DNA of 41,814 bases from Alphaproteobacteria bacterium MarineAlpha6_Bin4 (GTDB lineage: Bacteria > Pseudomonadota > Alphaproteobacteria > GCA-002720895), in NCBI GenBank assembly GCA_002937775.1, contig PTKO01000008.1, forward strand, positions 1 through 41,814. The letters are read 5' to 3'. A program made the position numbers and the translations under genes. Each line of letters starts with the position of its first letter. The first letter of the stretch is position 1. The notes beneath the pieces are model-generated. The model saw only the letters and a list, made by a program, of their open reading frames with translations, was not told where the DNA came from and searched no databases. Below, piece by piece: positions 10,681-17,682 of this stretch.

Positions 10681-11148
10681 ATGAAAACATATTTTTCAAT
10701 TATTAAAACTAATTTAGGAAATATATACGCCGAAGCAACAAATAAAAATTTAATAAAATTATATTGGACAAATAAACAAATTAAAAATCAAAAACAAACA
10801 AAAAATAGAATTTTAGTTAATTTAGAAAAACAATTAATTAACTACTTAAAAGGAAAAAAAATTAAATTTAATATTCCTCTATATATGAAAGGTTCCGTTT
10901 TTCAAAAAAAGGTATGGAAAAATTTACAAAAGCTAAATTGGGGGGAAAAAAAAAGTTATAGTGAAATATCTGAAAAAATTTCCCAAAATAAAAAAAGTGC
11001 AAGAGCTGTAGGAAATGCGTGTTCGAAAAATCCTATTTTAATTGTAGTTCCATGCCATAGAGTTATTTCTTCTAATGGAAAGTTTGGTGGTTACAAAGAA
11101 GGATTAAATAAAAAGAAAAAATTATTAGAATTAGAAAAAATTATATAA
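10681..11148 (+). CDS. ogt: Methylated-DNA--protein-cysteine methyltransferase
   Basis: FQKKVWKNLQKLNWGEKKSYSEIS...ARAVGNACSKNPILIVVPCHRVISSNGKFGGYKEGLNKKKKLLELE, with the active-site PCHRV. Confidence 0.93.
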   Translation: MKTYFSIIKTNLGNIYAEATNKNLIKLYWTNKQIKNQKQTKNRILVNLEKQLINYLKGKKIKFNIPLYMKGSVFQKKVWKNLQKLNWGEKKSYSEISEKISQNKKSARAVGNACSKNPILIVVPCHRVISSNGKFGGYKEGLNKKKKLLELEKII

Positions 11149-11382
11149 TTAAGCAGTTCCCACAACTCTAGACGCCCAAAATCTATCTAATACGTAGTAC
11201 CATACACCATTTAATAGTGGTTCAACGATTGCATCGGTTATTGCTATAGAAAAAGGAACACTTGCAATTACCATTAAACAACTAACAGCAATAAACATAT
11301 GCCCAATAGTATATATGATAGTCCTCAAAAATGAGCCATGGCTATTTAGTTTTTGTAAGGAATTTGTAACTGCAGTCATCAT
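11149..11382 (-). CDS. Small membrane protein, DUF2061-like
   Basis: 77 aa with two hydrophobic segments and SFLRTIIYTIGHMF...EPLLNGVWYYVLDRFWAS; family call from memory. Confidence 0.6.
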   Translation of the reverse strand: MMTAVTNSLQKLNSHGSFLRTIIYTIGHMFIAVSCLMVIASVPFSIAITDAIVEPLLNGVWYYVLDRFWASRVVGTA

Positions 11383-11465: not shown

Positions 11466-11897
11466 ATGTTTAAAAGAAACCCAAAAATTGACTCAAAATC
11501 ATATATTCATACAAGAAAAGCCCATGAATCAGAGCTTGCAGAAGATTATGTTGAACTAATAGAAGATTTAATTAATAAAGAAGGCGAAGCAAGAATAGTT
11601 GATATAGCAAATCATTTAGGTATTTCAAAAGCTACAGCAAATCAAGCAATAAGTAGATTAGTAAAAAAAGGTTTTTTAAAATCAAAGCCATATCGAGCAA
11701 TTTATTTAACTAAAAAAGGTGAAAATACAGCTTTACATGCAAGACAAAGGCATAAAATTGTTTATGATTTTTTATTAGCTATAGGTATAGATAGAGAGAC
11801 AGCTGAACTAGATAGTGAAGGAATAGAGCATCATGTAGGAAATAAAACTTTAGAAAAATTTAAAAATTTAACTAATAAATTAAAAAAAAAATGTTAA
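11466..11897 (+). CDS. mntR: DtxR/MntR-family metal-dependent transcriptional regulator
   Basis: YVELIEDLINKEGEARIVDIANHLGISKATANQAISRLVKKGFL...RHKIVYDFLLAIGID...DSEGIEHHV. Confidence 0.85.
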   Translation: MFKRNPKIDSKSYIHTRKAHESELAEDYVELIEDLINKEGEARIVDIANHLGISKATANQAISRLVKKGFLKSKPYRAIYLTKKGENTALHARQRHKIVYDFLLAIGIDRETAELDSEGIEHHVGNKTLEKFKNLTNKLKKKC

Positions 11898-11919: not shown

Positions 11920-12285
11920 ATGCCTTTTGTAACAATTACTATACTAGAAGGAAAAAATAAAGAATACATTAAAGGTGTATCTGAAGGAATAAATTCTGCG
12001 GTTAAAGAAACTATGGATTTTCCAGATGATGATCTATTTCAAGTTGTTCATCAAGTAAGCCAAGATTGTCTTCAATATCAACATAGAACTGAGGATAGGG
12101 TAATGATGCACTTAGTTATGCGGTCTGGTCGTACCAACAAAAAAAAGCAAGCTTTTTATAAAAAGGTAGTTGAAAATCTCTCAAAAAATCCGGGTATTAA
12201 ACCTGAAAATGTTTTTATAACAATTACCGAAAATCATGATATTGATTTTGCATTCAAGGATGGAATAGCTCAATTTGTTGTTTAA
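11920..12285 (+). CDS. Tautomerase-family protein
   Basis: Met-Pro N-terminus (MPFVTITILEGK...), 121 aa, MIF/4-OT-like. Confidence 0.75.
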   Translation: MPFVTITILEGKNKEYIKGVSEGINSAVKETMDFPDDDLFQVVHQVSQDCLQYQHRTEDRVMMHLVMRSGRTNKKKQAFYKKVVENLSKNPGIKPENVFITITENHDIDFAFKDGIAQFVV

Positions 12286-12353
12286 CATTTTTTAAATGTT
12301 ATAAAAACTTTTTAATAAAACTTTCATATTTAATTTTTTTTAATTTTTTTAGC

Positions 12354-12371
12354 TTGGCACAATTGTTGCTT
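12354..12371 (+). promoter_or_regulatory. Sigma-54 (-24/-12) promoter of amt copy 1
   Basis: TTGGCACAATTGTTGCTT: TGGCAC-N5-TTGCT, GG-N10-GC spacing. Confidence 0.85.
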
Positions 12372-12381
12372 GAGTTCTAGT

Positions 12382-12500
12382 GAGACAAATAATTATTAGA
12401 ACTTATATAAAAAAATTATTTTGTTTGTCTCCCTCTTTGTAAAAAAATTATATAAGTTTATCAGAGCGAGATACTGGATAATTTCTAGATTATCTCGCTC
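12382..12500 (+). ncRNA. Candidate structured 5' leader RNA of amt copy 1
   Basis: Crossing inverted repeats 12382-12392/12421-12431 and 12400-12410/12448-12458, plus a perfect 10-bp hairpin 12464-12473/12491-12500. Confidence 0.55.
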
Positions 12501-12524
12501 AACATATATGTAAGGAGAAAAAAT

Positions 12525-13808
12525 ATGTTTAAAAAATTAAAATTATTATCAGCATTCCCAATGTTGTTATTACTTTTAATGCCATTAGAAGTTTTAGCAG
12601 AAGAAGTAACGGCGGGGCAAGTCGCTGGTGATAATGCATGGATGTTAACATCAACATGCTTAGTTTTGTTAATGACGATTCCAGGTGTTGCTTTATTTTA
12701 TGGTGGATTAAGTCGTAAACAAAATGTTTTGTCTACGTTGATGCATGTATTTGCTGGTTGCTGTGTTGTAACACTTACGTGGTGTATTATTGGATACAGT
12801 ATTGCTTATACAGAAGGCACAACACCTTATTTTGGCGGACTAGGCAATTTTATGTTTAATGGTTTTGAAATTGCTGAAAAAGATTATAGTGGTTTGCCAA
12901 TAGGAGTCGATGTGGTCTTCCAAGCTACATTTGCTATTATCACAACAGCACTTATTGCAGGCTCGTTTGCTGAAAGAATTAAATTTTCATCAACACTTGT
13001 ATTTATGGCAATATGGTCTGTCGTTGTCTATGCCCCCGTGTGTTATTGGGTATGGGGTGGTGGAGTTTTATCAGAAAAAGGAATACTAGATTTTGCTGGT
13101 GGAACTGTTGTCCATATAAATTGTGGAATCGCTGGTCTTGTAGCAGCTATCGTAGTTGGAAAAAGATCAAGTGACATATATACTTGGGCACCTCACAATC
13201 TTATTTACACAATAGTTGGAGCTTCTCTACTTTGGGTAGGTTGGTTTGGTTTTAATGCTGGCTCAGCCTATGGTGCTAATGAAAGTGCTGGGATGGCAAT
13301 GCTTGTGACTCAAATAGCAACAGCTGCTGCGGCTTTAGCTTGGATGTTGGTAGAATGGTTAACCAAAGGAAAACCTACTGTGATTGGATTAACAGGTGGA
13401 GCTGTGGCAGGACTTGTCGCAATAACCCCTGCATCTGGATATGTATATCCTATGGGAGCTTTAATCATTGGATTAGCATCAGGAGTAGCCTGTTGGTTCT
13501 TTTCAACCGTTGTTAAAAAAGCTCTTAAATACGATGATTCATATGATGTATTTGGAATACATGGTGTGGGTGGAATAGTAGGCGCTTTATTAACTGGTCT
13601 TTTTTGTGTACCAGTTTTAGCAGGAGTTGAACCAGGTATGAAACAACTTGGTATTCAATTTTATGGAATACTTTTAACTATTGGTTGGTGTGCTATTGCA
13701 ACTTTTATAATTTTAAAAGTAATAGATATGACTATGGGATTAAGAGTAAGTTCTAAAGTTGAGAAAGAAGGTTTGGACGTCAATCTTCATGGTGAGGTTG
13801 TGTCTTAA
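12525..13808 (+). CDS. amt: Ammonium transporter, Amt family (copy 1)
   Basis: PGVALFYGGLSRKQNVLSTLMH...DFAGGTVVHINCGIAGLVAAIVVGKR...GWFGFNAGSA...DVFGIHGVGGIVGALLTG; SD taaggag upstream. Confidence 0.97.
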   Translation: MFKKLKLLSAFPMLLLLLMPLEVLAEEVTAGQVAGDNAWMLTSTCLVLLMTIPGVALFYGGLSRKQNVLSTLMHVFAGCCVVTLTWCIIGYSIAYTEGTTPYFGGLGNFMFNGFEIAEKDYSGLPIGVDVVFQATFAIITTALIAGSFAERIKFSSTLVFMAIWSVVVYAPVCYWVWGGGVLSEKGILDFAGGTVVHINCGIAGLVAAIVVGKRSSDIYTWAPHNLIYTIVGASLLWVGWFGFNAGSAYGANESAGMAMLVTQIATAAAALAWMLVEWLTKGKPTVIGLTGGAVAGLVAITPASGYVYPMGALIIGLASGVACWFFSTVVKKALKYDDSYDVFGIHGVGGIVGALLTGLFCVPVLAGVEPGMKQLGIQFYGILLTIGWCAIATFIILKVIDMTMGLRVSSKVEKEGLDVNLHGEVVS

Positions 13809-16340: not shown

Positions 16341-16358
16341 TTGGCATAATAATTGCTT
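16341..16358 (+). promoter_or_regulatory. Sigma-54 (-24/-12) promoter of amt copy 2
   Basis: TTGGCATAATAATTGCTT: TGGCAT-N5-TTGCT with GG-N10-GC spacing. Confidence 0.8.
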
Positions 16359-16386
16359 AATTATTCTTATACAAAGAGGGTTTATA

Positions 16387-17682
16387 TTGAAAAATTTATT
16401 TTATTTATTTAGTCTTTTATTATTTTCAAATTTATTTGGATTTACAGAAGTATTAGCAGATAATGGCGAAGCTGTACTTGATACTGGTGACACAGCATGG
16501 ATTATGACAGCTACTGCGCTAGTATTATTTATGACTCTACCAGGATTAGCGCTTTTTTATGGTGGATTAGTTAGTTCCAAAAATGTTGTATCAGCATTGA
16601 TGCATGTTATAGCTATAGCTTGCTTAATGTCAGTTCTTTGGCTATTTGGTGCATATAGTATTGCATTTACAGATGGGGGTGATCTAAATAAATATCTAGG
16701 AAGTATTACAGAAAAATTTTTATTTAATAATGTAGAATGGAATGCGCTAAGCGGAACTATACCAGAAAATGTTTTTTTTATCTTTCAATTAACTTTTGCT
16801 GTAATTACTCCGGCCCTAATGGTTGGGGCTTATGTTGAAAGAATAAAATTTTCTTCTGTTCTTTTGATTTCTGGTATTTGGTTGTTTGTTGTTTATGCTC
16901 CTGTAACTCATTGGATCTGGGGTGGTGGTTGGCTAGCAGATTTAGGAGTTTTAGATTTTGCAGGTGGATTAGTTGTTCATACAACAGCTGGTGTTTCAGC
17001 ACTTGTCATAGCGATTTTACTTGGTAATAGAAATGATTTCCCTAATAATGTTTTACCTCCACATAATCCTGGTCTTGTCATGGTAGGAGCGTGTATGCTT
17101 TGGGTTGGATGGTTTGGATTTAATGGTGGAAGCGCCTTAGCGGCAAATTCAAATGCAGGAATGGCAATGGTTGTAACTCATATAGCAGCTGCAACAGCAT
17201 CTTTAACTTGGATGGGTATCGAATGGTTTAAAAATGGCAAACCAGGATTAGTTGGACTTGTAACTGGTACAATTGCTGGTTTAGCAACAATAACTCCTGC
17301 TTCTGGTTTCGTAGATCCAAAATCTGCCTTTATTATTGGTGTGGCTGCCGGTGCTATATGTTATTACTTTTCTGTTTTAATAAAACAAACTTTTAATATT
17401 GATGATTCTTTAGATGTTTTTGCAGTTCATGGTGTCGGGGGTATGCTTGGTACCATAATGGTAGGATTTTTAGCAAATGAAGCTATTGGTGGAACAGCTG
17501 GAAGTTTGGCACAAGCTAAGGTTCAAATAACTGGTGTTGTTACTGTTGCTGTATATTCTCTTATTGCAACATTTATAATTGTGAAAGTAGTCCAAACTAT
17601 AATAGGTTTAAGAGTTTCAGATAAAGATTCTCAAGAGGGTCTAGATATTACATCTCATGGCGAAAGAGGATATCATTTATAA
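16387..17682 (+). CDS. amt: Ammonium transporter, Amt family (copy 2)
   Basis: TTG start; LPGLALFYGGLVSSKNVVSALMH...DFAGGLVVHTTAGVSALV...GWFGFNGGSA...DVFAVHGVGGMLGTI. Confidence 0.97.
   Translation: MKNLFYLFSLLLFSNLFGFTEVLADNGEAVLDTGDTAWIMTATALVLFMTLPGLALFYGGLVSSKNVVSALMHVIAIACLMSVLWLFGAYSIAFTDGGDLNKYLGSITEKFLFNNVEWNALSGTIPENVFFIFQLTFAVITPALMVGAYVERIKFSSVLLISGIWLFVVYAPVTHWIWGGGWLADLGVLDFAGGLVVHTTAGVSALVIAILLGNRNDFPNNVLPPHNPGLVMVGACMLWVGWFGFNGGSALAANSNAGMAMVVTHIAAATASLTWMGIEWFKNGKPGLVGLVTGTIAGLATITPASGFVDPKSAFIIGVAAGAICYYFSVLIKQTFNIDDSLDVFAVHGVGGMLGTIMVGFLANEAIGGTAGSLAQAKVQITGVVTVAVYSLIATFIIVKVVQTIIGLRVSDKDSQEGLDITSHGERGYHL

Follow-up and report, generated by a model that had tools for sequence, protein, structure and literature searches.

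A structured, probably cis-regulatory leader with crossing stems precedes one of two ammonium transporter genes in two alphaproteobacterial genomes

The window, the 41,814-nt stretch of DNA analyzed here (contig PTKO01000008.1 of Alphaproteobacteria bacterium MarineAlpha6_Bin4, genome G000), carries two copies of the ammonium transporter gene amt, each preceded by a sigma-54 site. The gene termed amt copy 1 (12525-13808, plus strand; TIGR00836, E 2e-128, above cut-off) has a leader of 144 nt, and its promoter, TTGGCACAATTGTTGCT, occupies 12354-12370 on the same strand as TTGGCAC-N5-TTGCT, fitting the -24/-12 consensus TTGGCAC-N5-TTGCW with its GC at 12368-12369; placing the start 12 nt past the C of this GC predicts a +1 at 12381. 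At amt copy 2 (window 16341-16387), the sigma-54 site TTGGCATAATAATTGCT is followed by a leader of about 19 nt, close to the 18 nt or so estimated in an earlier sequence-only reading of this DNA. A relaxed sigma-54 consensus has only two matches in the window, both 5' of amt genes.

Within the amt copy 1 leader, two 11-bp stems interleave at the positions which that reading had proposed. The first, P1, joins GAGACAAATAA (12382-12392) to TTGTTTGTCTC (12421-12431) with one G-U pair and lies as near the sigma-54 start as had been claimed, the predicted +1 being the single base 5' of it. The second, P2, joins AACTTATATAA (12400-12410) to TTATATAAGTT (12448-12458), crosses P1, and reaches 12 bp when G12399-U12459 is counted (arms 12399-12410 and 12448-12459). 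Between the two 3' arms lies loop 3, CCUCUUUGUAAAAAAA (12432-12447), whose conserved pyrimidine tract is a candidate anti-Shine-Dalgarno (anti-SD) sequence. Downstream of both stems, and stronger than they are, is the hairpin P3 (GAGCGAGATA...TATCTCGCTC, 12464-12500; arms 12464-12473 and 12491-12500), followed by the Shine-Dalgarno (SD) sequence AAGGAG at 12512-12517; all of these features are on the plus strand. P3 and the anti-SD tract are not among the features that the sequence-only reading named. The leader contains no intrinsic terminator, and no T run follows P3. A minimal start-stop frame, ATGTAA (12508-12513), overlaps the SD and is missing from the related genome G001 described below.

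Because stem 2 is rich in A/T, the sequence-only reading had cautioned that its pairing might be fortuitous. We scored the stacking energy of the best pair of crossing helices and used shuffles and equal-sized windows on both strands as controls. The leader scores -30.85 kcal/mol, a value reached by 2 of 1000 shuffles of the 144-nt leader and by none of 2000 shuffles of its 82-nt core, and the core ranks first among 4174 equal-sized windows on both strands of the 41.8 kb. Together with the conservation of 21 of 22 P2 arm bases in G001, these results counter the caution: the pattern of an H-type pseudoknot, in which the loop of a first helix pairs downstream, is present beyond chance and is kept in G001. 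The nested fold has a z-score of -5.4 in the window and of -4.6 in a G001 segment that begins inside its leader. Second-tier crossing stems (-27.7) occur on the minus strand at about 11213-11315, between one open reading frame that ends at 11148 and another that starts at 11466.

We compared the window with five other genomes of the family. In G001, the same sigma-54 site and leader stand before an amt gene 94% identical to amt copy 1, and the predicted +1 there is again the single base 5' of the first stem (GAGA). Identity is 15/17 in the promoter and 3/11 in the -11 to +1 spacer, and conservation begins at +2, with 8/11 and 11/11 in the P1 arms, 11/11 and 10/11 in the P2 arms at their 11-bp extent (12/12 and 10/12 at 12 bp, both differences preserving pairs), and 9/9 and 9/9 in the P3 arms; loop 2 stands at 6/10, loop 3 at 13/15, and the variable P3 apex at 8/18. 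Stem arms are thus identical at 58 of 62 positions, against 33 of 54 in loops (P = 3e-5) and 124 of 205 (60%) at four-fold sites of amt (P = 1e-7). Large length changes are confined to loop 2 and the interval between P3 and the SD, and the spacing of the arms shifts by 9 nt. Where pairs differ, pairing is kept: C-G becomes U-G in P1, which in G001 needs a one-base bulge (an A) and is weaker there, while in P2 U-A becomes U-G, through the A-to-G change that is the single difference among the 22 arm bases, and G-U becomes G-C. The comparison of the two sequences comprises 32 pairs, 96.9% of cells paired, with three one-sided changes and no double-sided compensatory change, so that it documents conservation and not covariation. 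The sequence-only reading had staked its case on covariation or conservation of the stems in relatives; the stems are conserved in G001, whereas the element is missing from the relative G004 and no true covariation was seen. The G001 assembly is likely mixed or contaminated, given 6% contamination and a contig 99.6% identical to one of G000. That contig carries lon and HU (L132 vs L133), and other orthologs are 77-84% identical. The G001 contig bearing the leader is 84% identical to the window across promoter, leader and gene, and is a distinct homolog.

In G004, amt copy 1 is 86% identical, lies 3' of an HU (hupA-like) gene and retains a sigma-54 site, TTGGTATATATCTTGCT, but its leader is only 18 nt long and holds no structured element (L005:1456-1500), indicating gain or loss of the element as one module. 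The upstream neighbors of amt copy 1 are a tautomerase gene in the window, a metal-transporter-like permease gene in G001, and the HU gene in G004, and yet promoter, leader and amt stay joined in G000 and G001. In G001, G003 and G004, amt copy 2 likewise has its sigma-54 site near the gene, and the short leaders there and at amt copy 1 of G004 mark the structured element as specific to amt copy 1; of the three genomes found to have that gene, two carry the element. A covariance model (R1) built from both leaders, and searched in largely overlapping samples of 385 genomes of the class, matched only G000 and G001, the same two genomes to whose amt copy 1 leaders P3 is restricted. Those weak R1 matches that were inspected (E 0.5-8) resembled coding, tRNA or other unrelated DNA rather than amt leaders. 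Among 86 further loci that were fetched, most of them from amt, none matched the leader, and a plain DNA search of plasmids and phages gave no match either; two IMG/VR pattern matches were unrelated DNA without the remaining leader. Judged by sequence comparison, the amt copy 1 leader is a real, conserved and narrowly distributed structured RNA of two genomes.

The window genome encodes NtrB-NtrC, with a GSFTGA loop in NtrC, as well as an NtrYX-like second response regulator that has a sigma-54 activator domain and adjoins a sensor kinase. RpoN was found in G001 and G003, which are sister genomes; the 69%-complete assembly of G000 yielded no rpoN, which may have moved, been lost, or lie within the missing third. 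In G001 and G003 (L092, L093), rpoN has as its neighbor the tautomerase gene that in the window (11920-12285) lies ahead of amt copy 1. No NtrC box of the enterobacterial type was found near amt. A porin-like outer-membrane gene in G001 and G002 (L112, L113) has the same sigma-54 consensus ahead of it, which suggests a small sigma-54 regulon, and transcription of amt copy 1 looks nitrogen-controlled via sigma-54 and NtrC.

The sequence-only reading had allowed either a pseudoknot or two mutually exclusive folds; the crossing stems stand, and a pseudoknot is the likely form, though the two folds may instead exclude each other. Nested folds containing P1 and those containing P2 differ by no more than about 7 kcal/mol, in an order that is reversed between the two species. 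In a hand estimate rather than a tool result, which adds a pseudoknot penalty of about 9.6 kcal/mol to the stack energies, the window's P1+P2+P3 state lies near -43 kcal/mol vs -38 kcal/mol for the nested fold, such that with a standard penalty the pseudoknot would be the lowest state and the default could be a pseudoknot with an open SD. With loops of about 7, 10 and 16 nt, coexistence of P1 and P2 in one molecule is plausible on steric reasoning.

Folding also links the stems to the SD. In the nested minimum-energy fold of the window, the anti-SD tract at 12433-12439 (CUCUUUG) pairs with 12511-12517 (UAAGGAG); the same pairing forms when P1 is forced, with the P2 3' arm pairing to 12501-12510. 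The probability that the SD is unpaired is 0.02 with P1 forced and about 1.0 with P2 forced in the window, and 0.23 and, for the larger part of the SD, about 1.0 in G001, where the direction is the same, different bases are involved, and the unforced nested ensemble favors P2 with the SD mostly open. This pattern, in which P1 alone would hide the SD and P2 would free it in both species, is suggestive and not significant: the SD is hidden as well by 8% of shuffles for the window and 31% for G001, and four other start regions in the window offer the anti-SD tract better pairing than its own does. Since sequestration is only weakly unusual, a switch is the best mechanism and not a proven one.

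We infer from these folds a leader that would operate as follows. Transcription would start at the sigma-54 promoter, giving an mRNA that opens with an H-type pseudoknot, in which P2 crosses P1, and continues with P3 just 5' of the ribosome-binding site. With P2 formed together with P1, the SD would be exposed; with P2 open, the loop 3 pyrimidine tract and the freed P2 3' arm would base-pair to the region of the SD and prevent initiation. The trigger may be a nitrogen metabolite, a protein or temperature, or there may be none. The leader is probably a new, narrowly distributed cis-regulatory RNA acting on translation, and could control the amount of transporter made. That this 144-nt element, with its pseudoknot and P3, sets translation is the likeliest single reading, which we hold at slightly less than even confidence; that it represents a new pseudoknotted, riboswitch-like class adding translational control by nitrogen status atop sigma-54/NtrC, for one of the two transporters of a streamlined alphaproteobacterium, strikes us as quite unlikely.

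The main rival, possible if rather unlikely, and one that could act alongside a translational switch, is that the leader stabilizes the 5' end of the mRNA: an 11-bp stem within one base of the start, locked by P2, would block RppH/RNase E-type decay with no need for switching, and a long-lived mRNA would suit a transporter made under nitrogen limitation. The position of the predicted +1, one base before GAGA in both species, argues for it, as does the established precedent of stabilizing 5'-terminal stem-loops in ompA, papA and aprE (works cited in PMC3997798), but a simple hairpin would do without a crossing stem, and neither the conservation of the loop 3 tract (13/15) nor the exact sequence of the P3 arms is accounted for. 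A riboswitch whose aptamer would be the pseudoknot, and whose ligand would be glutamine, 2-oxoglutarate or some other metabolite linked to nitrogen, would fit the ammonium transporter gene, the conserved loop 3, and the frequent use of small pseudoknots as aptamers, including those of glutamine-II (PMC6698751) and the SAM-binding pseudoknot of Pelagibacter (PMC2704228). We nonetheless regard it as doubtful in view of its A/U-rich loops, its extremely narrow distribution, the nitrogen control that transcription apparently already receives via sigma-54 and NtrC, and the results from Rfam: nothing reached gathering score over the window, and no match was credible at E<=10 over 12280-12560. Less probable still is recognition of the pyrimidine tract CUCCCUCUUU and of the unvarying P3 arms by an RNA-binding protein or a small RNA; these are conserved in sequence and not just in structure (18/18 in the arms), and all 10 nt of CCCUCUUUGU are complementary to ACAAAGAGGG in the leader of amt copy 2, but no candidate protein was identified, and we rejected the trans pairing of CCCTCTTTGT (12431-12440) with ACAAAGAGGG, which is perfect in the window but missing from G001 and hence likely a coincidence. 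Inverted repeats can be operators and the region is AT-rich, yet DNA-level operator sites or chance complementarity are highly improbable given the 9-nt shift in arm spacing, G-U pairs in P1 and P2 that fit RNA rather than DNA operators, conservation that begins at +2 and not in the preceding spacer, and shuffles that seldom equal the crossing stems.

In this group, amt genes have sigma-54 promoters and very short leaders, and a folded leader of ~150 nt occurs only at amt copy 1 in two species, so G004 and the pair G000/G001 offer a natural comparison, without and with the element, of what a folded leader adds. If nitrogen sensing or translation control proves true, these small-genome bacteria would have a second layer of nitrogen control, and the leader would be a new RNA family. 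What the sequence-only reading proposed is supported in part: the leader is structured and starts at a predicted sigma-54 +1, its stems cross beyond chance, and it is not a known glutamine riboswitch; it is also conserved in one relative. The sensing of nitrogen status which that reading raised is conjectural.

That reading did not recognize the cores of the glutamine riboswitches, and the Rfam check likewise gave no match to RF01704 or RF01739. In marine bacteria, glutamine-II (Downstream-peptide RNA, RF01704) is a pseudoknotted 5' UTR element of nitrogen metabolism (PMC6698751, PMC2864571); the amt copy 1 leader is likewise a pseudoknot-type 5' UTR element tied to nitrogen metabolism, but it gives no covariance-model match, belongs to another host group, has the extra hairpin P3, and has its sigma-54 start at the first stem. 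The glnA RNA (glutamine-I, RF01739) also occurs upstream of ammonium transporter genes, as well as PII genes (PMC2864571), but has a three-way junction with a loop E motif (PMC6698751), a core to which our leader shows no model match. The SAM-binding pseudoknot of Pelagibacter is a simple one that precedes a gene in marine alphaproteobacteria whose DNA is AT-rich (PMC2704228). The leader described here shares with SAM-II and SAM-V a simple pseudoknot upstream of a gene, but precedes a different gene and has no Rfam match to them. The stems of SAM-II and SAM-V are also shorter than those found here. Finally, like the stabilizing ompA-type stem-loops, the first stem sits at the very 5' terminus of its mRNA, but here it is crossed by a second conserved stem and then followed by P3.
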